In this document: piece by piece, positions 44,700 to 61,774 of the stretch
Numbering within the stretch: position 1 is the stretch's first letter
Layout: every line of letters begins with the position of its first letter
NCBI RefSeq assembly: GCF_021134715.1
Contig: NC_060019.1
Coordinates: 8,246,001 to 8,310,000, forward strand
DNA: 64,000 bases
Reading direction: 5' to 3'
Source: Daphnia pulex
Lineage: Eukaryota > Arthropoda > Branchiopoda > Diplostraca > Daphniidae
The notes under the pieces: model-generated
Database searches by the model: none
What the model was told of the DNA's origin: nothing
Seen by the model: only the letters and a program-made list of their open reading frames with translations
Translations under genes and position numbers: made by a program

Positions 44700-47600
44700 T
44701 TATGTTGAAGAGAGGATTTCACTGTCGGTGCACGACAAGGAACTGCGCTTTCGTCTATGTCGGAGATTTAGGTGGTCCACAAGATCTTGGTCATCATACG
44801 TTTCAGAAACGTTACTGACTTCATCGTTATCGTATTCCAAATCACTTCCTGATTCGGATGTTTCATCATCGGGTATTCGATTGACTGGGCCTCGTACTTT
44901 GGCTACCATTTCCGCTAGATCCGTAAATGTTTGCGGCCCTAAGACAAAAAAAATATTGAAGGAAATTTGTTTTATTACAAAATTGTGCATCCGACTAAAT
45001 TACCTCGTCGACCTTGAGATCGGTGTTGAGTATCATTCGTTCCGTAACGCTGGTTGTACGGATAACAAGAGTTGGCTGAAGGGTAAGTTGTTGGCGAAGA
45101 TTTCTTCGATTCCCGGTAATGAACACCTGGTTTAGTGTACGTCCCGAGAAGTCCAGCCTTTTGCAGTCCAATAAAGTAGGTTTTTCCATGATTGTACCCA
45201 ACATCCTGGTTAGTTAACCGATTAAAATCTGTTAGTTTCAATATTTTATGACATGAAAAGTAAATTAAGAAACTTGCCTTGATTTCATGAAAGCTACCAA
45301 ATTGTAACGTTTTGTACTTGTCAATGGGTGGTCTAATGTACTCACAATAGTCACTTTTCTTCACCTCCTGTAATTCAATTGGTAAAAACATCAAATAATG
45401 AAGTCAAAATATAAAAAGAAAATAGAAAATACTTCTAATTGACGAACGCAGGAAACGTAAGCAAGTCGAGACTGAATGTCGGGAAGATTAGGCACTTTTA
45501 CTGGGCTGGCGAAAGGATTCCACTTTTTCCACAGTAACCACCATCCAGATAGACAATCTCCATAATTTGTCAAATCGGTATCATCTTGTGAACCTACGTC
45601 GATGGCCAAAATGTGTTTGGCCCCTCGGCTTCTCATTACGTCAGCTTAGAAAAACATCACAAAATTAGATTTTTTTTTTTGCAATTCTAACATGTGGTTT
45701 TGAGGGGAAATAAACGACAACAATTAGCAAATCTGTCTTCACGAGTAAAATGACAATGGAACCTGCTCACCTGAATGCATCTTCCGAACCAGACTAATGC
45801 CAGATATTTAAAAGACTATACGAAGTAAAGAAGAAAACGAGGAAAAAAAGTACACTCATACGTTACCGGGTACATTGTTGACGTAGCATCCTATTTGAAA
45901 AAGAAAGAAAAAATTTAATAGTAAATCGTAATGAAAATAGATGATGTAATTTTACCGTCAACTAGCAGATGCCCATCGATCTCGTCGCACATGGGAGGTA
46001 GCCTGTTTGTAAAACATTCAAGGTATGTTAAAAGTAATTAATCCGTGCAACACAAATTTCGATTCAAAATATTACCATCCGGCAATCGACATGGAGGCCC
46101 GAATACTTCGCCATAGTGAGCCTGGTATTAGTGTTTAGGTGTTACAATCATAAGCGACTGTTTATTATTTTTTTTCCACACGCAGATAACAAGAATGGTG
46201 CAAGGCTATATGCTGTCCCTCTAAAAAATAAGAATGAAAATTGCATGCTTCCTACCTGCGTCATAGTTGGGGTGGTTTATTGTTAGCATGCATCCACCAA
46301 GTCTACCATCCGGTCCAACGAACTTAACATTCAAATAAAAGCAAAGGTTGAACGCGCGCAAGTACTACCTGGAAGGTTATTAACATAGCCGCCATCGAGA
46401 AGCAAGTGGCCGTCTTTAGGATCGCATAAAGGCGGCATGTAACCACTCAAAGACATCGATGCTCGAACATATCGCCACACGGATCCTACAATATGCCCAA
46501 AATGAATGCTTTCTTTAATTAATAAAAAGAAACATTTACCTCCAATTTTCAAACACGCCCGACACCACTAAAAAAAAAACACATGTATACACCAGTCCCT
46601 AGCAAAATGTTGGGATTTAGGAAGGAAGGGAACTAAAAAATATACTACGAGGGTTATAACCACCGATGCATGCATACCTTCTAATTAAATAGCAACCCAG
46701 CCTTGCACTCACTCAACTATTGAAAATTGTGCAAAAAATGTCAAAGCAGTAAAATACCATGACTATGAAGCCGCATGCAGCTGGATGTGATGTCTGTAGT
46801 GATGGTAAAATAAGGAAGCCACAAATCTTCAATAAGTGAATCTTCTCCAAAAGTTTCACGAATCATCGTGTTAAACCCAGCCCCGCTAAACATTGATGTT
46901 ACAGGATACGTTAGATCAACGAGCTGTCGCCAAAGCTGCGTCATTTTCTATGAAACGCAATGGAAAAAATATGTAGGATGAACATTGGCTGAAATCAAAA
47001 ATAATCTAGCCAACAAATTTCTTTAGAAAACGTACATGCGACCAGGAACTGGCTTTGCGAGTGACTTCGTGAATATCTTTTTCCATACACCAAAGTGCAC
47101 CCATGAACGCCCCGATGCTTACACCACCAACCATATCAATAGGAATACCGGCCTCCTGTTATTCCAAAGTTAAAATATCGAAATGAGCAATGACTTGGAA
47201 TAAAAGATTAAGCATATACCAGACCTGAATCGCTTGAATCATGCCAACGTGAGCTGCTCCTCTCGCACCACCTCCACCGAGTACCAGCCCGACGGATTCT
47301 CCCGTCAATAGACGAGCCAAACGAGAAAAGTCGGAATGAATGTTGCGATCCAAAAGTTGTGCCGGTTTGGTCGCTCCATCAGCCTTGAAAAAGAAAAACA
47401 ATGCATAATAAGGACGGACACGTTAAAAACACAAATGGATCAAGTAAAAAATTAATACCAGTCGTGAAGCATGTTTTCTGGAAAATATTCTTGGTGGACA
47501 TTGAATGTGATGGTGAGATGAACACCAAGAACGAGCATTTAGCCAATGAACAGTGTTTCGAGGTTTGTCACCTCCTTCTTTATGCAACAGAATCAATTCC

Positions 47601-50600
47601 TTTTGTGTGCGAACAGCAATCGTCTCGAGCTGCTTTTCAATAGTGCCAACGGAAGGCTCCATGGTGGCCAGGGCTACAATCAGGATGCAATCGGCCTGTC
47701 GAATGCATCGTTGAGTCCAAGGTGTAAGGGACTGGTCACATTGGTAGAGAACAATTTTGTGTTGATCTTCTTGTTGCCCGAGCCATGCAGAGAGTTTGTA
47801 TTCATTAGCTGATTCCATGATTGTAGGGCCGAGAGTTCGACGAATATAGTCCGATGTCAATAAAACTGTGGGACCTGGAAATGAATCGTTGATTAATAAG
47901 ATTTAACGAACCAAAAGTAAACTAAGTCTTACCAATCCAACTCAATGATGTGTACAGTTCATGACTAAACGGAGAAAGGGGAACGTCATCGGAAACTGGC
48001 AGTATGGCAACGGTTGAAAAATTTGATTGCACGGAACGCTGTTGTAACGCTTGATTAAAGCTAGAACTTTGTGTTTGCCATGTGCCTAACAAAAATAAAT
48101 TTGCCCATAAGATAAAGTTACAATATTACAAAATGTATGAAAAATAATACCAAGAATTCGGTGCCCAAGAAGATTGATGAGACGTGATACGACCATAGGA
48201 AATTTGAGCTTGATGGCATCCAAAAGACCTTCAGGCAGCTTGGCTAATTCAGTATCACGGACAGCCATGACAGTAGTGCTGCGAGGGTTTTGCGTAAGTG
48301 TTTCGACGATGCCTACCAAATCACCACGTCCGTACTCCCCCACTAATTCTTTCTTCCCGTCATGATGCGTAATGACGGATCGAAGGCGACCACTTAACAC
48401 TATATACGTGCAGTCGGATTCATCTTCTTGCCTTTAATATTGACAAAATAATTAGATCATAAATGATAAGATTAATATAAAAAATGTGATTAGCCGAGCA
48501 AATACCTGTATAAGGCTCTTCCACTTTCTATATAAACCCAATCTAAAGCAAAATCAATTTGACGCACAAATGGAGACAAGCGATAAATGACGGTGCGTGC
48601 AATATGTAACACCACCTTTGGCCGCTCGGACATGATTCTAAACAAAAATGTTGAACTCTAGTCAGTACACTACAGACATCGTAGATTAAATTTGTTTATA
48701 ACTTACGAATAAAATGTTGATTTTGAAAGCATAGCAACGCATGTTGTGTGACGTGAGCGGACTGTAAAGAAGCTTGGCTCTCCAGTTAACACGGCCAATC
48801 CACCAACCAATTCACCCGAATGAGCTAAAAACATTTGAACATCCTCATTTTTACTAGCGGCGCGCTGAGAGACACAAAGAGTTCCAGAAATGACGTAGAC
48901 TAGTGCTACATCTTTCATAGCATCTTCTTTCATAATATAAGTTCCGGGAATCAATTCTCGAACCTCAATGTGACCTATGACAAAAAACTTGATGATGACA
49001 AACGCCTAGAGTACTTGGAAAAACGTATTACCATCCAGCAATGACTGGTCTTCAAGACCCAATAACTTAACGAAGCCATCGATACCAACTTGCAGTAGTA
49101 GTTGGTAATCTTTTTCATCCTTCACTCGTCGTTTACCTTCCGACAAGGGAGTCGTCGGAGGTGTGGCGCAGTCCATCGGATCATTGACATTTATTGGCTT
49201 CTGAACGAAAGCATGTTCTCGCATACGAAGTTTGATGGGTGACGTACTTCCTCCGTGGTGTTTTGCTGGAAACGATTTGACCAGCTCAGCGCTGAGACCG
49301 AGGTATTGATGAAGTGCCAAAAACGTGACACGTTGTAGGCGAACCATAATGATTTGTATAGCGCGAACCAAAGCGTCCGGATGCTTGTCAAAAACATCTT
49401 GAAAGGCAGAGACGGGCAGTTGAAGAACTGAAGATTCTTCCATAGCTTGGGCAGAAACAGTTTTGAAAACACTGGGCTGACCAGTTAGGTAGTCGGTGAA
49501 ACTCAGCAAGGAACAAATAGCTTCTCCTCCCTTTACTTCCTTTAGTGTTATGGTTGAGCCATCAGCTTCTGTGCTGTAGACTCGAAGTCTACCACTCTGG
49601 ACTATGTACATATTTGTATCCTGATCGCCTGTACAGAACCAATATTTCAAAATTTCAGTGTGAAGACAGAAAATAGCAAAATGAATCATTACCGATCATA
49701 AACAAATGCTGATTGCATCGAAGATCTACAGTTTCAATGTGTTTGATGAGTTCTAGGAATAACGGTTTCTCGAAGCATCCAAACATTCTCATATTTTGGA
49801 GCATGTAAACTACTTCTGGGGGCAATCTTTGATCTATAGATTCCGATATGTCCTCTTGAAGATATTCCACAGGCGGCTCTACATTTTTTAGTTGAGACTG
49901 CGGCATGTGATCGCGACGTGGTAGAAGCCTCCGAGCCAGTTTCATGACTAGTTTTCTTTTTCGACCAGGTGGACCTCGAACTTGACCTGAAATCATCTTT
50001 ACTTTCTGTTTCACAGAAGAGATTTTGCGCAGCATTTTTCGTCCGTAGAACATGACCTTGTCCCTTTTTCGGAAACGGGGCTTGTTCATTCCAGATCTGA
50101 CGAGTTCTTTTACTTCAGCAACTAGGTTTAAAAGAAAAAAATTTGTCTTCACAAACAGCATCTTTAAAGGTATTACCAGGCCTATTACATAACATACTGC
50201 CTATGTAGGCAGTAGATAAGACGTAGCTATAAATATCAAAGAAACATAACCTAATTTCAAATGTATGTTGTCTAGAATTAAAAAAATAAGACTGAGAATT
50301 GAAATTGATTAGAAAATGAATTTTGCATCTTAAAACATCGCAGAAATACTATCAGCCTTACAAAGTAATGTATATAGTTGGTTCATGCATGAAGATTGGC
50401 ATTATTTAGAACAAACGGATCAATAAGTTATGTACACAGAACTCTAAAACTGTCAATAACTGTTAGACAAACCTTTAATTTTGATGGGCCTGGCCAGATA
50501 TATTCCAAACATTAGAAGTATAGCAATTGTGAGGACCGAACAAGCTGTCAAAAGGTACTGGAAATCATAAGACAAAAACGTTATTCCTTAGAAAATGATT

Positions 50601-50700
50601 ATTGATTATTTTTAAAAAGTATGAAAGAAAGGCATAGCATGGATATCAACGTTTTTGAAATTCTTACTTGACTATAGTAACTAGTTGAAAGCGAGTCCAT
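44700..50700 (-). CDS. sws: Swiss cheese / neuropathy target esterase (PNPLA6/7-type lysophospholipase)
   Basis: ER-membrane phospholipase B/lysophospholipase with regulatory cyclic-nucleotide-binding-like domains. Minus-strand exons: 50668-50700, 50473-50557, 49693-50121, 49032-49628, 48707-48974, 48506-48637, 48151-48431, 47933-48085, 47459-47874, 47225-47383, 47036-47155, 46758-46947, then either 46369-46485 or 46076-46121+45956-46002+45867-45890, then 45433-45644, 45278-45367, 45004-45205, 44700-44938. Either choice gives 1240 residues. There is an N-terminal membrane anchor (residues 12-32), three cNMP-binding-like domains (roughly 150-280, 400-500, 540-650), and a patatin domain with GGGGARG oxyanion loop (834-840), GVSIG nucleophile Ser864, and catalytic Asp985 in DGG or [19 protein letters not shown] and [13 protein letters not shown] are family signatures. 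The C-terminus is acidic and variable. One intron (45206-45277) has a GC donor. Confidence 0.96.
45867..46121 (-). other. sws: Alternative catalytic segment v2 of swiss cheese (three exons)
   Basis: Exons 46076-46121, 45956-46002 and 45867-45890 (46+47+24 = 117 bases) enter and leave in phase 1, exactly like the single exon v1. Joined, they encode 39 residues beginning [16 protein letters not shown] and ending [15 protein letters not shown]. The alignment to v1 is gapless, with about 26 of 39 identities and the catalytic Asp kept in DGC. Splicing exon 12 to v1 and then to v2 would put a second copy of the same structural element into the fold, so the two are most simply mutually exclusive. 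Confidence 0.85.
46369..46485 (-). other. sws: Alternative catalytic segment v1 of swiss cheese (one exon)
   Basis: A single 117-base exon, phase 1 to phase 1, encodes 39 residues from [16 protein letters not shown] to [15 protein letters not shown]. It carries the catalytic Asp in the DGG form, which is the form in vertebrate PNPLA6. It has good acceptor (TTGTAG) and donor (GTAGTA) sites and lies directly after the exon ending CMRLHSHG. Confidence 0.88.
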
Positions 50701-51408
50701 TTTGCTCTCAAGTTTATAGGTCTATCTACGAAGAAATCTTGTCACGAACTTTGACTACGCACATGATTTGTATTTTTATAAATAAATTCCCACTAGCACG
50801 ACTGGGAGTCTGGGACGATGAGGAATGGGAATGCGAAAAAGTGAAATGGATAACCATTCTTCGAGCAGACGATAACAGCTTTTCCATCTAGCGGAAAATT
50901 TGTAAGCATGTTTGAAAAGCTCAAATGAAATCCTCTAAATCTAAATCACTGTATTACGTGATGTAATAATTGGAAGCAACCGAAATCTTACTTAATGCGC
51001 GCTAAATTTTTCACATGATGAATTTTTTATTGCAATACTAAAGAGGACTTATGTAGCGAAACATAAATTATTTAATGAGAAAAGAATTTTTGGCTCATTG
51101 TTTTTGTTTACAAATACATTTGCCGTCTGCTAGTTGACTACGCAATTCACTAGCCTAGGTCAACAGTCCAACAACAATTTCACAATTCAGCCTTATGACA
51201 GGCTGAGCACATAGATAATAAGATTATTAGATTGACATTCTGACACCCAGACGCCCAGACAAAAACAAATTTTGATAGGTAATCATAAAGTTTGACATTT
51301 GACAGCATCACACTGACAAACATCCTGCATCAGCATCCTGTACTGCCTTAAACAAGTTTGTTTCTTCTCTCTGTTAGCACTAACATAGTGCATAGTTTGT
51401 GAGGAAAA
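50701..51408. promoter_or_regulatory. Bidirectional promoter region of sws and alpha-aspartyl dipeptidase
   Basis: The two start codons are divergent and 708 bases apart. No coding exon is seen between them. The two 5' UTRs and promoters must lie here; I see no clear TATA box for either. Confidence 0.55.
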
Positions 51409-52428
51409 ATGAGAAAATTACTTCTTCTTAGCACTTCAGTGTTACAAAATGGGAAATACCTAGACTACGCCTCTGATGTCATCAAAGCCTTTTTTGCTGA
51501 GTATTCACCCTGATCCATCTATAAAATTTAGTGTACTCATTTTATTCCAATGATTTAGAAATGGTGTGTCTAAAATTGTGTTTATACCATATGCAGCGCA
51601 TGACCATGATGCCTATGAAAAGAAAGTGAAGGATGCATTTTTAGAATTTGGTATTTATTCATCTAGAAGTTCTGTTTTGTTTGTTTGTTTGTTTTGGTGT
51701 ATAATTGATTAACTGTATTTTTTGTTGTTTTGGTTGCAGGGCTGGAACTCAATAGCATTCACAAGTCAGACAATTTACTGGCAACTGTAAAGGAAGCTCA
51801 AAGCTTTTTTGTTGGAGGAGGAAATACTTTCTTGTTGCTTAAAACACTCTATGACTTAAATCTACTTGAAGCCATAAAAAGCAGAGTTTTACAAGTATAT
51901 AGTGTTATTACATTATCACATCAAAGATTTTCTGAAAACAAAACTTTAAAAATTCTAAAATCTAGGATGGAATTCCTTACATGGGCTCAAGTGCTGGAAC
52001 AAATTTAGCTACCATCAACATTTGCACAACAAATGATATGCCTATAGTGCATCCACCCACATTAGATGCCTTTGGCTTTCTTCCTTTCAACATAAATCCA
52101 CACTACCTTGATCATGACCCAACATCTAAACATATGGGGGTTAGTGACTGCCATTTGGCAATAAAAACACCGGTACTATTTTTAATATATATATATTTTT
52201 AATTCACAGGAATCTAGAGAAACGCGTTTATCAGAATACCATGGCATTCCGAATGCAAAATCTCCACCGGTATTGGGTTTGAGGGAGGGAAGCTGGTTAC
52301 AAGTGAAAGATGATCAAATTCTTCTTAAAGGAAGCATATCCAATCAAACCGCAAGATTGTTTGTCCGTGGCCAGCAAACGAAAGAACATGAAGTCAACTC
52401 TGACCTCAGTTTTCTATTGAAAATGTAA
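51409..52428 (+). CDS. Alpha-aspartyl dipeptidase (PepE, peptidase family S51)
   Basis: Cytosolic serine dipeptidase that cleaves N-terminal Asp-X dipeptides. Five exons: 51409-51500, 51559-51650, 51740-51894, 51966-52139, 52210-52428; 243 residues, close to the 229 of E. coli PepE. Motifs in order: N-terminal KLLLLSTSVLQNGKYLDYA; VFIPYAAHDHDAYE; VGGGNTFLLLKTLYD; the nucleophile elbow GSSAGTNLA (Ser122); TNDMPIV; NINPHYLD (His159); ETRLSEYHG; and GLREGSWLQV. The Ser and His correspond to Ser120 and His157 of the bacterial enzyme. The family is common in bacteria and also present in flies, fish and frogs. The five introns-phase-consistent exons show this is a genuine animal gene, not contamination. 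AATAAA follows 26 bases after the stop. Confidence 0.95.
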
Positions 52429-53301
52429 TGTCATCAAACATTTTTGTGATGAAAATAAAAAAAAACACACCTATGCATGCCGCATTTAGAATCTTGTAGC
52501 TCGACAATAGATGTACTTATCACGAATTTAAAAAAAATATCATTAGGAAAAATGTCTGCTGATATTCCCTAATCATCAATTGAAAATAGCTGTTAAAATA
52601 TATTTCGCATGACATTGATTTCTATTGCCAGTCGGTCTGCGCAAATTGTAAAAGCAAAACCGCATCCCTGGTTATTATTTGGGAATTAAAGTTTAAACAT
52701 TTTTTAAAGATTTATAGTTCGATGGTTTAAAGTTGGAAGTCTTTAGATTCATTGCCAGGCCAACTACACCTACATCTAAGGCACACTATTCTAGAGCCTA
52801 TCGGATAAGGTGAGTACCGATATTAAATGGGTCAAACATTTTAGAATAATAGAGAAACGTAATAAGCAATACATAATAAGAGAAAGACTTAGCATCGTCT
52901 CGGCTGCTGTAACTTCTCGCGTTGGTAGTATCCTATGGAAAACATTAGGCTAAACAAGGCAAACGAACTGAAGCAAAATCTATATATTTACAAAATGAGG
53001 TAAACTATGATGAACAAGAACTAAAAATGTCATGAAACAAGCTTTCCATCACGATCTTGATTGCTAATATTCTTATCGCAACCCTCTGAAATGCCAAATA
53101 AAGTACTAACTCTGCAACAAATAACAAATATGTACAATGACATGTACAGTTTCCTCTGCTTACTGTCAACAATATGAGCAAACCAAAAATGTAAAAGGTA
53201 CGTTATTTAAACCACCACAAAAGAGATTAATAATGTTCTATAGCAGAACAAGTATCCTGTAACTTATGGCACGGATTTTTTTGCCGCACTTTATGTGGCG
53301 C
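52429..53301. other. Convergent 3' spacer between the dipeptidase gene and GAPVD1
   Basis: AT-rich DNA with no coding signal that I can support. It holds the two 3' UTRs. Confidence 0.6.
52454..52459 (+). terminator. AATAAA polyadenylation signal of the dipeptidase gene
   Basis: A canonical hexamer lies 26 bases beyond the stop codon, implying a very short 3' UTR. Confidence 0.7.
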
Positions 53302-56300
53302 TTAATGTCCGTAATCCATCGTCTTGACGAATTCGATAGCCGAGCAGAATTGCGTCCACCAATACTGATCTTCTCCTTCCAAGCGGTTGCCAAAGAAACT
53401 GTTGACGTACTCAACGGTCGACAGCAGACAAGGAGGATTAGCCTTAACAGATTACGTAAATTTTAAATATGAGTTGTGAATAAAGAAATTCCTTTTTTTT
53501 TAAGTAGTACCTTGATTATGACGAAGACAAAAACGGGCATGAAATCATCAGCGGCCGGGACGCCACGTTCAGCTGCAGCAGCGGCTAGTGAAAGGAGATT
53601 CATAATGGTTGTGGCGCAGCGGATGACGCAAGCTACTTTATCACGAGGTGTTTTGTAAGCACTAATAGAGACCAATTCCGCCTGGGCTGATGGCCAAGGA
53701 CATTCGTAGCGATAAATTTTAGGAATTCTCAAATCCTTGTGGCTAGGAGTAACCACTTGTCCCAACTTTTCAATGTGCTCGTAGAGAACCTGTGGATATA
53801 AAACAAATTATTCATCAATGAAACCTCCTTATTAGTTGGTTCACACATACCTGATCTCTAGAAACGTCGCCATCGCCATTTGGATAAAGAGCATAATTAT
53901 AAATCAAAGCCATCAACCTTTGTTCAACAGCAGTCTGGGCTAGCTCAATTTGGTATCGACTAGCAGATTGCCACATGGAATCGCGTTCTAATTCTGCTGA
54001 AAGACGATGCAGAAATGATTCAAGCCAGTCAGCCTTCTCGTCAGCTGCGTGCAATTGCTGGAATTCAACGACGAAATCGTTGAGTTGCTTTTCTCGCCTC
54101 TCAAGAAACAGGCGGACGCAAACGGATATGAGGAAACGGTGACAGACAGCCTTGTCCTGCTCTACGCGATTAGCCAATCGCTCTAAATGAGCCAAAACGG
54201 AGAGCAATGACTGACGACATTGGATCAAGTATGAAAGGTAAGGTGCTCGACCCTTGTAGTCCTCTTTAAGAGAATGAAAGAGCTTAGAGCATCCAATCGC
54301 GTCAAAGAGTCGGACGCAACGCAACGTCTCATGAAGCTGGGCGACCAGTGAGCGATCCTGCAGGTTAATGGCTTCAGCTAGTTGCAGTTTGAGAAATATG
54401 ATCAATTCGTGCTCTGTGCTATTGCTGGCAGCAGTGGCATTGTTCATGACGTGAAGTGACTGGACGTCCGCCGTGCTAAGAACGAGTCTCAGCTTCCTCT
54501 TTGCATCAGCAAAAGCATATGATGACTCGATATTTAATGGGTCGATATGCTGGCGTTCATCTTCACCCTCATCCTCATCCACTGAATGTTCTTCAGCCAA
54601 ATTGAAGGCCACCATCGATTGAGTTCCATTAGATGCGCTGGCATCTCCTTGGCCGGCGAGGTTAGATCCTTTAGAACGATACTTCGCCAAAATGTCATCT
54701 GAACTTTCGGTTGCTAATGCAGTGCGGGCCTCTTCCGATGCTGATCTACGTAAGGAGCGGTTATAACTAGCGTAATTTACGTTGTCCGGATGATCAACTG
54801 CACTTGAACGGTCTTTAGTACGCCCTCCTCGTTTGAAAGGAAGTTTAAAGTTGCGGAAAAACCCTCGCTTGTTTTTGTTCTCGTCATCGTAGCAATTTTC
54901 TTTATCACCGCGATCAGCTGTTTTGTCAAAACTGATGCTCTTAGGAATGGCACCTGTTGACGCTTGTTGACCACCATTTGATATTGAAGTTGCCGTTCCA
55001 ATTGCAGAAGACGAAGTCGTATTCACCATAGCCCCGACAGCTGCAGTTGAGGTTGCCAATCCTTTTGCACTGCTAGCTATACTGCCATGACTGCTGCAAG
55101 ATGAAGAGGAAGAAGACATTGGGCCGTTGGAAACGTTGGAAGAAGATTCCTGCTGGGGTGCTGAGCGTGACTGAAGGCTTAAGTTTTGAAGCTGTTCCAC
55201 ACTTGCTTCTCGTATTGGACGGAAAAGGCTGCCCGACATTCTCCCACGAATTCGCTGGATGGCGCCCAAATGAGATGACCCAGCGTTGACAGCGAGCATG
55301 GATGTTGTAGAGTCTTGCTCGCTGTCAGCTTCCGAACGAGCCACACTACTGGTTTCATCTGTATCCACTTCCGCCATTCGTTCAGTGTCCGAGGTAACAA
55401 CGTCAGTGCTCCAGGCTTCAGATGCCGTCTCTGAGACGTCAAATAGTCCTGCTTCTGCTTCCACGAGTAAGTGACGGCCTGGAAGAACAATATCTTCAAG
55501 TGGCGGTCTAGGGATGGAAAAACCAAACGTTAACAACGTGTCCTTGAATGTGTTTTAGACATCATATAAATCACCTGTCAGACTGTCGATCCCTATCAGC
55601 GGTCTCGTTTGCTAGTTCACTATCACTACCCAAAACATCGGTGCTCCAAGAATCACTAACAAGCGATCGGGTCTCATCGCCTAGAATCAGATCTTTAACA
55701 TCAAAACGACCAAACCGGTCATCAATGTCCGAAGGCTTGGGCGGAACGGCCTGCATTAACAACGGCCGTTGTTCATTAATGCCACTTCTCGAAGCACCCT
55801 CATCTCCTTCAGTAACCTTGAGGGGAAAACAACATTTGATTAAAACAGTTAACACAAGATAACAAAGTTTTTTTTGTTACCTGAGAAGACGGAGTATCTC
55901 TTCCAGAGACATTAGGCGAACCTCTACCTGAAACATTAGCTGATACCATATCCGAAAGATTGTCAATCGGATCTTGCTCTGCTTCGTCGTTCTCCGACTC
56001 CACTGAGGATTCAACACTGTGGTTAGATGCAGCTTCTGATACAGCCTCAAGGTTGTCGCTTGTATTTCCGATAGATCCTTCGTCGTGCGACAAAGAGAAA
56101 CGAGTCCGTTTTTCTTGTACGGGATTTTGCTGCATTTCTTCGGCGCCTTGAACAGAACTGCCATCCAACGATGCTCGAGTTGACTCTTTTTCCTGTTCAA
56201 TTGCCAAGACTTGTTGCTCTGACAACATGCCAATGCATTCTTCATTTTTGCTACTAAAGGGGATGACTAGGACGTGCCCGATGACAGCCCCTGACGAACT

Positions 56301-58314
56301 AGGAGATTCTTCGCCGTTTGAATGACGAGGCGTGCCCAATTCACCAGAATCGTCAGAACTGGACCAAATGCCAAAAGAATGGTCGCTGTCTCTTTGAAGA
56401 AGATTGGCAGCTTTAGAGCGAACACGAATATTGACTTTATCTAGGAGATTCCGTTTTCCTTTCGGCGAAGACCCGGAAGATTCTACAGTTAATCCATTTG
56501 AGGAAGGAGTCAAATCTCCGTTACTCTGCGACAGAGTAGATTTGACTGGGGAGCATAACAGGGGTACAGGCTGCAGCAAACTTTCAAGCGTTCTCTTATC
56601 ATTTGCTTCTAGTCCATCATTTGCTAGTACGGTCCGAAGGAATTGAACGAAAGTCTGCAATTCGCTTTCGGTCACCAGAGCGACAGAGCGATTCAAACCT
56701 AATAAAAGTCTATGAGTATCGACTGACGGATCTGCCGATGGAGATGACTGAGTTGATGAAGGAGAAAAGGGGGTCACATTGGCTGATGGAGTTCCGTCAT
56801 CTAGAATTGCATCCAAAATCGATGACACACAGTCTTTGTCGAAACGAGAGTAAAGGTCATCCAGTTTAGGATCAAAAGGTTCCCATTTAGAGTGAACCAA
56901 CACCTGAAGGATCTGGGCCACTTGAATCAAATTGGACCGGGCTATTGGCGAGATTGGGGCCTCGACGATACCACATGGATCTGGGTTGACAATGGCAGGA
57001 CAGATGAAGAATGCGAAGACCAAATCAACGCAAATAGCGTGAACTTGCCGTGCATCAATTCGCATTGAATGGGTTAAGAGTGATCGCATTTGACGAACTA
57101 ACCAGGCGACACTACGATAGAAAAAAAAAAATGATTAGTGGTTTCCATTAGAAAATTGGCATAAATCATTTTGTTAGATACCTCGATGGAAAACAAGCGA
57201 CACTGGCAGCTAAACCTGACACAAATCTTTGTGTCAGCTGAACTAGACGATCGATAGCAGTGGTGCGATATTTTTGAATAGCGGAATTAAACTCTGGTGT
57301 GCCTTCGCGACCAAATCGTTTCTCTCGCTCATAGGATGGGTAGCGGTTGATGGCCCGGATTGGATCAACGTCAAGATACATCTCATCTTCCATTAACAGG
57401 AAAAGAATAGGGTCGTGAAGGGCAGCCGTTAGAAAAACTTTGGCTGAGAATAGCCCCTCGGTAAATGCTTTGTACAACCGACTAAAGGCGCAGCTTCCAT
57501 GTCGGAGAAGTCTTTAAATACAATTACCAAGTTAGATCTAATTCATAGCCACACAAATATATGCTGGAAATTACCTCCTTGGGTTTTCAGAACTAACAAG
57601 TTGCAATTCCATCAAATGCTTCAAGAGTTGTAGGCAGTACTTTTCATCATCACCCAACAGGAAGTTTGCATAAAGACTGGAAGTGACGACACTGATGACT
57701 GTGGGCATGGTTTCAGGGCTGAGCTTCTCGCCACTGGCCAAGCACACAGCTAACAAGGGTGCATTTTCTCTTAACCGTTGGAGGAATTCACTGAAGAGAG
57801 CTTCATGGAAACCCAAGTGTCTATAACCCTCAATGAAACAGGCTCCCTCCAGAGCATTAGCCTGTTGGCAGGAAAAGGATGGACTGACCTCAAGACGGGA
57901 GATTATTAGGCCATCAAGATTGATTCTTTGCTGACTGGCAACCCAAGCAAGTTGATGAAGCTTTTCAAGTGCCTCTGACACCTACAATTGAACAAAAAAA
58001 TAATTTAGTTTCATGCCATATTTGGTCACATACAAGCAATGACATTTTAACAGTTAAATCAAGGTTATACAAGAAGATGTTATGTTGGAGACATTGGTGG
58101 AGAATATAGACAATCAGTAGAACAATCGTGTTAGTGCTAGTTGCTATGTATAGACAGGAATGCTCTTACTGTTTCGGCCTTAAACATGAATTACCTTTTT
58201 ATTGAGAGTCTGTAGATTCTGTCGTTCGGAACCAATGAGTAATCTCTCTTGGCGTAAATTGCGCGCTAGGTCAAGTAGCATTTCGTTCTGTAACTTAGAA
58301 CTGACAGGAACCAT
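53302..58314 (-). CDS. GAPVD1: GTPase-activating protein and VPS9 domain-containing protein 1 (RME-6/Gapex-5)
   Basis: Endocytic regulator with an N-terminal RasGAP-like domain and a C-terminal VPS9 exchange domain for Rab5. Eight exons on the minus strand: 58195-58314, 57575-57981, 57182-57511, 55881-57111, 55575-55816, 53851-55507, 53511-53789, 53302-53442; all phases agree; 1468 residues, very near the 1478 of human. The RasGAP-like part (about residues 60-480) includes [15 protein letters not shown] and the signature [16 protein letters not shown] long Ser- and acidic-rich middle (about 500-1080) is probably disordered. The VPS9 part includes [20 protein letters not shown] and [17 protein letters not shown] and ends YGH. 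The start [20 protein letters not shown] matches the family N-terminus. It is divergent from SCAI across a long inverted repeat. Confidence 0.96.
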
Positions 58315-59316: not shown

Positions 59317-61774
59317 ATGGCTGAACTGGATGAAAATGAACGTAGGATTATCAATGAGTTTTGCCAACTACAAGAAAAATCAAAACAACTTTTCAATGGA
59401 TTAAGGTAATTTTGTTTTGTTATTGAGGAAGATTATCCAAGTACTGTAACCAGCAGTGGATGAACCAACCTCTTCCATATAACGGCCATCGGCTTTATAA
59501 TACGACAAGGATTGAGAAAATGTTATGATTTTCTTTATTTTCTTCATGTTTTTAGAGACTTGCCTCAGTATGGCCATAAACAATGGCAGGCATACTTTGG
59601 GCGCACTTTTGACGTGTACACAAAATTGTGGAAATTTCAGCAACAACATAGGCAAATCCTTGATGTCAAGTATGACCTAAAGAGGTGGCAAATAGGTGAA
59701 ATTGCATCTAAAATAGGACAGCTTTATTACCATTACTAGTAAGAAATATATATAATCAAATAACATACAATATACATTTCTTAACATTCACTCAATATTT
59801 TAAACTCTGTTTGCAGCCTTCGGACAAGTGAAACTAACTATTTAAATGAAGCCTTTTCATTCTACTCTGCAATCAGAGCAAGGTCATATTATTCTAGGAT
59901 TACCAAAGAAGATCACCATGGAGGCTCTAAGTATTTTTCCTATTGATATGAAGATGATTCCTAATTATGAGTGTTATCAATCATGTTTGGTCTACTTTTA
60001 AAAATAGGTCTGATCTAGTTGTGAAAAAGCTGAGATACTATGCCAGATTCATAGTTGTGTGTCTTTTGCTGAAGAAAATGAAACTAGTCAGAGAATTAGT
60101 TAGGGTAATACTTTAAAATACTTAAAAAAATTAAATTTGATTTAGTAGCTTTTAAACTGATATTGAACCTCTTAATAACAATTCAAGGAGCTTTCAAAGT
60201 ATGTTGATGAATACACCAGTACATATGAACCAGATGATCAACTAGAGTGGTCTTTGGTTCTAGGTGAAATCAAGTCCTTTCTAGAGGCCGACGCCATTTT
60301 AAACATACTGGATGCCGATTCTAATCCCATGGTCATTTCTCATAGGTATGTATTATGTTAACGTTGTAATGTATCCAATATAATAACTATTCTTACCTGA
60401 AATTTTCCAGGCTAAGCCCGCTCACTACTCCTCCGGTGGAGAAAAGTCCTGCGATGGATTTAACTCTCCAAGAAGTTCTGATTTTTGGAAATAATAATGA
60501 TCAAGTGAAATTCAGTGAATTGACTCTTGACATGTTCCGTATATTACAAACTCTTGAAAGAGAGCCCCAGGAAGATGCTTCATACCAAGCTTACTCCCTT
60601 CCGTCACGGGCACCGTCCATGGTAAATTATAATTTTTAAAGTTTAAGATTAAGATTAACCCTTAATTTGTATTAATTGGATACTTATTGCAGGAGGCTAA
60701 TGATCGTCCCTTGAAACGAGAGAATCCACACAAATATCTTCTGTATAAACCAACACTTAGTCAACTGTTGGTATTTCTCGCATCGGGTTTTAAAGAGTTA
60801 CCCTTAAACGGCGCCCTGTTACTCTACATTTCGGCTGACGGCCTGTTTCCATCTTCCAGTTCTTCTGAAGACCGTATGTGATCAGATATTAGTTTTCTTA
60901 TTTTCAATTGAATAATATCGTTTGTTGTTTTGGGCTTCATTTTCTTTGATTAAATTTTAGGATACGATATGGGTGGTGTTTGTACCAACAGTAAACGAGA
61001 GCCGGATCAAAGTGGAAATAAGCGTGGTTCTCAAGTGAAGGAACTGAACTGTTTATATCCTGGTGATTTAATCCCCTTTATGCGAAAACCCCTCTTTCTC
61101 ATCGTGGATTCCGACAACAGTTGGGTCTTCCAGAGTGTTCCGATACTATTCGGCCAACCTTTGGTGATACTCATGTCCCCACAGGACGTCCCATCCCAGT
61201 ACCAAGGTTATTGCTTAAAGTTTACGTCCATAACGTATGCGGTCCATATTAATGATTATTATTCTTTCGTGCAGACTTGCATCCTAAAGGAGGCCTCCTT
61301 ACTCTTTTTCTGCACAGTCCTCTCACCGCCATATGCGTCCTTGGTAAAATCAAAGAAATACCCTATCACCTCTGGGAAACGGGCCAAGCTTTTGTTGATC
61401 GATTCTTGGCAGAAGCTAGTCGGCTATTGACCCGCGTTAAAGGCATTGGTATTAATTGAACCACGGGATTCTCTCTTAAATGAACATGATCTGATTCGAA
61501 TATTATTTGATTTGTTTTTACAGAGTCATCTTATCTGCCTTTCCTTGGCGACGACTTCTTACGGCTACTGTTACTGCGTTTCATCTTCTGTTGCGTGGCC
61601 CTTCGCCTTCACCGGGCCTTTAAACATTGGCCAGCTCTACTTCCCCGTTCGCAGCCCCCTCTTCCCGAAAGCGAGCTCTTGCTGCAAACTTCGCTCGAAC
61701 GGGCCATGTATACGTTGATCGATCATTTGGAACTCAGTTCCGTTTTTATAGAACCAAGCAGAGAGATCCTTTGA
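59317..61774 (+). CDS. SCAI: Protein SCAI (suppressor of cancer cell invasion)
   Basis: Nuclear cofactor known in mammals to inhibit MRTF/SRF transcription and to act with 53BP1 in DNA break repair. Ten exons: 59317-59405, 59556-59738, 59817-59930, 60008-60104, 60188-60345, 60411-60621, 60693-60873, 60961-61206, 61275-61448, 61524-61774; phases agree; 567 residues against 606 in human. The N-terminus is strongly conserved: EKSKQLFNGLRDLPQYG, KRWQIGEIASKIGQLYYHYY, LRTSETNYLNEAFSFYSAIR and KLRYYARFIVVCLLL. Later segments are RRENPHKYLLYKPT-like (KRENPHKYLLYKPTLSQLL), GFKELPLNGALLLYISADG, YDMGGVCTNS, YPGDLIPFMRKPLFLIVDSD and LFGQPLVILMSP. The C-terminal FLGDDFLRLLLLRFIFCCVA corresponds to the vertebrate FFGDEFLRLLLTRFIF segment, after which it diverges and is shorter. 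Confidence 0.95.

Follow-up and report, generated by a model that had tools for sequence, protein, structure and literature searches.

The swiss cheese (sws)/NTE gene of Daphnia pulex raises the question of whether a single gene can supply two versions of one enzyme. The 39-residue segment that carries the catalytic aspartate of its patatin domain is present twice in the window (the whole 64-kb stretch of DNA analysed), once as a single exon (v1) and once as a trio of short exons (v2). The answer depends on whether the second version is alive or decayed, on whether the two are used as alternatives or together, and on what would choose between them. The explanation favoured here, which we consider quite likely as a whole, is that an ancient tandem duplication created two segments that are spliced either-or, the choice being most likely in the hands of a trans-acting regulator for which RBFOX is the leading candidate, and that both of the resulting enzymes are probably active.

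The NTE gene and its two catalytic-aspartate segments

The coding span is that of a complete gene, running in a single unbroken frame from the ATG at 50700 to the stop codon that ends at 44700, and its splice sites are of the GT-AG type throughout with the exception of one GC-AG intron (intron 15, at 45277 on the minus strand, which begins with GC in the context TCAAG/GCAAGT). The encoded protein combines in one chain an NTE_Ploop domain (PF24179, 219.1 bits), three cNMP-binding stretches (PF00027, 147 bits) and a C-terminal patatin domain (PF01734, 90.1 bits), which is the architecture of NTE/swiss cheese (PNPLA6/7), and by this set of Pfam domains the gene is NTE/sws. A search of the assembly (133,188,837 bases in 13 contigs) with the NTE_Ploop family matched this gene only, so that one NTE locus was found, and five of the six matches of a patatin-domain search lie outside the window, i.e. 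other patatin loci exist. A comparison of a 110-aa v1 segment with solved structures gave the bacterial PlpD (5fqu, E 5e-8) as its closest match; the other three of the four matches (E up to 1) are apparently unrelated.

Within this gene v1 is exon 13, and the v2 trio sits inside the 724-nt intron that follows it (Table 1). Both v1 and each of the v2 exons are preceded by AG and followed by GT, the three v2 exons add up to the same 117 nt as v1, and both versions are entered in phase 1 from exon 12 (46758) and left in phase 1 towards exon 14 (45644). The two protein segments align without a gap, with 26 of 39 residues identical and 13 different, the differences including DGGYVNNLP in v1 against DGCYVNNVP in v2 and PPLCDPKD against PPMCDEID, and Asp985 is kept in each. 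An earlier note on this DNA had claimed this arrangement, and its coordinates, exon lengths and phases, the gapless alignment at about 26 of 39 positions, the residue differences and the catalytic Asp in both versions are all borne out in the sequence.

Table 1. Features of the sws/NTE locus, in positions of the window. Splice-site scores come from a model built on 20 introns, 14 of sws and six of the neighbouring RasGAP gene (read by eye).
Feature	Position	Strand	Remarks
swiss cheese/NTE gene, ATG to stop	44700..50700	-	17 exons with v1, 1240 aa
Exon 12, shared, upstream of v1 and v2	46758..46947	-	donor for v1 or v2, score 7.7
v1, single exon, 117 nt	46369..46485	-	catalytic Asp, DGGYVNNLP; acceptor 2.2 (below 17 of 20 reference acceptors), donor 7.1
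v2 exon a (v2a), 46 nt	46076..46121	-	acceptor 0.4 (below 20 of 20), donor 7.3
v2 exon b (v2b), 47 nt	45956..46002	-	catalytic Asp codon; acceptor 8.7, donor 2.8 (below 20 of 20 reference donors)
v2 exon c (v2c), 24 nt	45867..45890	-	end of the segment, CYVNNVP; acceptor 8.6, donor 5.5
Exon 14, common downstream exon	45433..45644	-	acceptor 7.7
TGCATG, RBFOX-type	46669..46674	-	intron upstream of v1, about 184 nt away
TGCATG, RBFOX-type	46287..46292	-	76 nt downstream of v1 donor, upstream of v2
AGCATG, RBFOX-type	46244..46249	-	119 nt downstream of v1 donor, upstream of v2

Mutually exclusive exons are defined in WebScipio as neighbouring, internal, homologous exons that agree in length, splice pattern and reading phase (PMC3228551). 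The Daphnia pair has length, splice sites, phase and homology in common with the pairs collected there, the two versions being neighbouring internal sequences of equal length with GT-AG borders, the same frame and similar sequence. It differs from them in that v2 consists of three exons, and since three genes with alternatives made of exon groups were set aside in that study, the one-versus-three layout looks uncommon.

With 39 aa of v1 as the query (E up to 10), the assembly returned v1 itself and the middle v2 exon only (E 0.04, a weak match), and v2 together with downstream residues matched v1, v2a, v2b and exon 14, only the best candidates having been scored in either search. A derivation of v2 from another gene was rejected, as no NTE P-loop match was found beyond sws, nor any v1-like or v2-like match among these best candidates.

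Divergence, selection and the catalytic site

At the nucleotide level the two versions differ at 48 of 117 positions, distributed as 12, 5 and 31 over the first, second and third codon positions. By the Nei-Gojobori method, 28.0 of 28.2 synonymous sites are changed (pS 0.99), against 20 of 88.8 nonsynonymous sites (pN 0.23). When 48 random changes were placed on v1 in 20,000 neutral simulations, the mean number of identical residues was 12.1 and the maximum 20, and the observed 26 identities were reached in none of the runs, which puts the resemblance beyond chance. Because the silent sites are saturated under purifying selection, the duplication of the segment is judged to be old, and the previous proposal of an old exon duplication is thereby upheld, with a tandem arrangement and a frame kept by selection.

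The same figures bear on the reading of v2 as a decaying relic of the duplication that is seldom or never spliced in. Its weak entry acceptor, the weak donor of v2b and the change of DGG to DGC are what such a relic might display. We nevertheless regard it as highly improbable, given that purifying selection is evident despite saturated synonymous divergence, that three exons all retain AG and GT with their phase sum preserved, and that v2 has family residues at places where v1 departs from them, DGC itself being found in bacterial members of the family. It is thus probable from sequence comparison that v2 is an ancient, active alternative and not a relic.

With regard to the catalytic machinery, both forms of the protein possess the patatin Ser/Asp pair, consisting of Ser864 (in GVSIG) and Asp985, which are 121 residues apart; the corresponding pair of human NTE is Ser1014/Asp1134, with a spacing of 120 (PMC9025805). 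The Pfam patatin profile scores the v1 form at 93.2 bits and the v2 form at 90.5 bits, a slight preference for v1. The fit to the family was further assessed with the best 80 of 374 bacterial NTE relatives, which were gathered by a query whose first sequence was v1 and should therefore be biased toward v1-like residues, and which are not independent of one another, 17 of the 80 titles naming Microvirga. An upstream motif, IE[DE]LWLP[YF], is present in all 80, and a second pattern, which contains DGG, is present in four as well. The Asp and the Gly that follows it are found in 80 of these best 80 relatives, and the third residue is G in 41, A in 33, C in four, S in one and N in one. The DGC of v2 thus falls outside DG[GA] at its third residue, yet the occurrence of C in 4 of 80 relatives makes Cys at this position rare but natural.

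L3 (68/80) and V30 (66/80, where the L of v1 occurs in 0/80) are typical of the bacterial family and belong to v2, not v1, while G33 and L38 are family-typical residues that v1 has and v2 has not. Among the 13 positions at which the versions differ, one falls in a gap throughout the 80 relatives; at the 12 that can be scored, the v2 residue is the commoner at seven and the v1 residue at three, and neither occurs at two, with the summed ln odds against the bacterial relatives amounting to +7.97 in favour of v2. By these measures neither v1 nor v2 looks decayed.

A different possibility is that v2 disables the esterase, so that the isoform is either catalytically dead or a dominant regulator and acts only through the cNMP/PKA-binding part of the protein. 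The uncommon Cys at the third DG[GA] position lends this some colour, as does the separate PKA-C3 role of fly SWS (PMC9025805). We think it unlikely, as v2 retains the Asp, the Gly, both Asn and the Pro, matches the bacterial relatives no worse than v1 does and is nearly its equal on the patatin profile. In the reading that we prefer, both enzyme forms are probably active, and the exchange of DGC for DGG, W for Y and EI for PK in v2 would probably alter the preference for acyl chains or lysophospholipids, or the reaction with organophosphates. In that, the suggestion of two esterase isoforms made in the earlier note holds to the extent that both are plausible esterases by Pfam and by their family residues, the proposed difference in substrates being our inference. 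Judged by the sequence comparisons, there is good support for describing v2 as an old and functional alternative version of the catalytic segment.

Proposed either-or splicing and the candidate regulator

In the model proposed here, the mature mRNA would link exon 12 to one of the two versions, v1 or the v2 trio, and continue into exon 14. The products would be two enzymes of 1240 aa, in which the half of the active site with Ser864 is common and the half with Asp985 is exchanged. The joining of exon 12, v1, v2 and exon 14 gives 1279 aa in frame, and the skipping of both versions gives 1201 aa, again in frame; it follows that neither frame nor the decay of faulty mRNA enforces exclusivity, and a frame-based mechanism was ruled out on this ground. 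Exclusion by an intron too short to be spliced was ruled out as well, the intron between v1 and v2 being 247 nt long in a gene that splices one of 57 nt. Incompatible introns of the U12 type were dismissed too, for all five donors in the block begin with GT and, by eye, GTATCC is seen at none of them.

The open frame is also what would permit v2 to be a cassette block included after v1, with a double-segment protein made beside the 1240-aa form. No sequence feature was found that forbids double inclusion, and the v1-v2 intron is long enough to splice. On the other side, two core segments each with a catalytic Asp are not expected to fit into one patatin fold, and similar neighbouring exons of the same phase are seldom annotated as constitutive or cassette exons, this having been reported for 90 of 16,180 exons and 6 of 1,705 genes on the fly X chromosome (PMC3228551). 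The cassette arrangement is thus considered very unlikely, and mutual exclusivity of v1 and v2 is, to judge from the exon architecture, likely.

The introns around the alternatives are 272, 247 and 222 nt long, and 19 of the 20 comparison introns measure 57-110 nt, the remaining one 351 nt. The acceptors at which the two versions would compete for exon 12, those of v1 and v2a, are weak, and those of v2b, v2c and exon 14 are ordinary (Table 1). The donor of exon 12 would accordingly have to pick between two weak acceptors, and once v2a was chosen, the ordinary inner acceptors would bring in v2b and v2c automatically. It has to be noted that the donor of v2b, weaker than every reference donor, counts against so simple a picture.

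A further qualification concerns the start of v1. A rival acceptor at 46512-46486 on the minus strand, 27 nt upstream, has an AG and a good pyrimidine tract and scores 10.6, and its use would lengthen v1 by nine residues, in frame and free of stops. The start at 46485 is supported by homology with v2 and with the relatives, though 46512 could be the true site, and if it were, the v1 acceptor would not be weak. Other acceptors for v2a, at 46220, 46218 and 46212, were rejected, as each introduces stops.

Several further splice-like signals were observed in these introns on the minus strand. Intron 12 has a pseudo-exon of 28 nt at 46567-46540, with a T-rich AG acceptor of 7.6 (higher than that of v1) and a donor, GAG/GTAAAT, of 6.2; it would shift the frame and may be a decoy or a poison exon. 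At 46677, AAG/GTATGC scores 5.8 as an acceptor and 6.1 as a donor and might be a zero-length splice point ahead of TGCATG. Good and seemingly unused donors are located at 46255 (CAG/GTAGGA, 7.3) in the v1-v2 intron and at 45770 (CAG/GTGAGC, 5.2) after v2.

With respect to what would make the choice, competing base pairing between introns, of the Dscam type, had been put forward for checking, and the check was carried out on a single sequence by duplex folding of seven intron pairs with 200 shuffles each. The pairs ranked 37, 119, 154, 57, 177, 7 and 6 among their 200 shuffles (uncorrected), which is no convincing signal, with two of seven pairs near the top and the others between 37 and 177. 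The long flanking introns and the palindromic GCATGC stretches on either side of v1 also fit a pairing mechanism. The two top-ranked pairs, however, both involve the second inner intron of v2 and not the introns at which entry would compete, and five introns and the whole region, when folded on themselves, were all less stable than their shuffles (z 0.5 to 1.4). Selection by intron pairing therefore seems to us quite unlikely.

A trans-acting regulator is the selector that we consider most likely, rather than the reading frame, an intron too short to splice or RNA pairing, because the competing acceptors are weak and GCAUG sites are clustered around v1. The hexamer [TA]GCATG is the target motif of RBFOX, whose sites as a rule enhance an exon when downstream of it and repress it when upstream. 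The two introns that flank v1 (519 nt together) hold three copies and the remaining sws introns (1282 nt) hold one; the entire 64-kb window has 16 on the sense strand and 30 on the opposite strand. At least three copies were found in 7 of 3175 sliding 519-nt intervals; for the introns flanking v1, a Markov null gave P = 0.008. The motif was selected after the sequence had been viewed, and the cluster is for that reason to be taken as a lead only.

As to the protein itself, two exons of an RBFOX-type RRM were found in the genome, at C10:1491046 and C10:1494484, with 89% identity to the query over 35 residues and 92% over 24 residues, respectively; the middle exon of the RRM was not found in the assembly search. 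When the two exons were joined by eye, the best solved relatives were fox-1 homolog 1, RNA-binding protein 9 and ASD-1. Two features that mark an RBFOX-regulated exon, sites in the flanking introns and an RBFOX-type protein encoded by the species, are thus both seen at the level of sequence. RBFOX acting on the GCAUG sites that flank v1 is the leading candidate regulator, and under the RBFOX rule the GCATG pair downstream of v1 would favour v1 and disfavour v2.

Counterparts in other animals and neighbouring genes

The two Drosophila sws isoforms in UniProt presumably differ in this same 39-aa block, with DGGYVNNLP in one and DGCYTNNVP in the other. If so, the Daphnia pair is orthologous to an annotated fly pair, predates the split of insects and branchiopods and has perhaps gone undiscussed. 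Two isoforms of Drosophila sws, each of 1425 aa, are on record along with smaller predicted potential isoforms (PMC9025805). Coming from the same gene, their equal lengths resemble the same-length swap in the crustacean and are what a 39-aa exchange of this kind in flies would produce.

These fly isoforms make it doubtful that the pair is undescribed, although no paper on it was met in open-licence PubMed Central. The exon pair did not appear among the matches listed there, as judged by titles and the starts of abstracts, which is weak evidence, and the strings DGGYVNNLP and DGCYTNNVP occur in 0 papers of its full text. The novelty of the pair is accordingly limited.

Related solutions are known from other systems. 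In the muscle myosin heavy chain of Daphnia, also a water-flea gene, the choice of exons likewise swaps parts of a catalytic (motor) domain (PMC3228551), but the enzyme is a motor ATPase with several such clusters and not a lipid hydrolase. Vertebrates likewise have two NTE-type lysophospholipases per organism, PNPLA6 and PNPLA7 (PMC13224342), but these are two genes, whereas here there are two exon sets in the single NTE_Ploop locus found. A wider proposal, which we hold to be possible but doubtful, is that arthropods with a single NTE possess an ancient, RBFOX-controlled switch, probably older than the separation of insects and crustaceans, that yields two lysophospholipases in parallel to PNPLA6/PNPLA7. 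Were that so, rescue and organophosphate work on fly sws may have covered one enzyme of two.

Delayed neuropathy is caused by organophosphates that have NTE as their target, and when the enzyme is lost or mutated, flies undergo neurodegeneration and people develop disease (PMC9025805). If splicing does swap half of the catalytic site, arthropod NTE amounts to two enzymes, and results on substrate range, on sensitivity to organophosphates and on rescue have to be interpreted for each isoform separately. The pair would at the same time provide a natural experiment, with two proteins that differ solely at 13 residues of the catalytic-Asp segment.

The surroundings of the gene were noted in passing. 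The nearest neighbour of sws on the minus strand (53320-58000) encodes RasGAP and DUF5601 domains and resembles GAPVD1. An open frame at 60954-61427 on the plus strand encodes a partial SCAI protein (PF12070, 86.8 bits), and exons that look peptidase-E-like by eye lie at 51400-52440 on the plus strand, between sws and the RasGAP gene.
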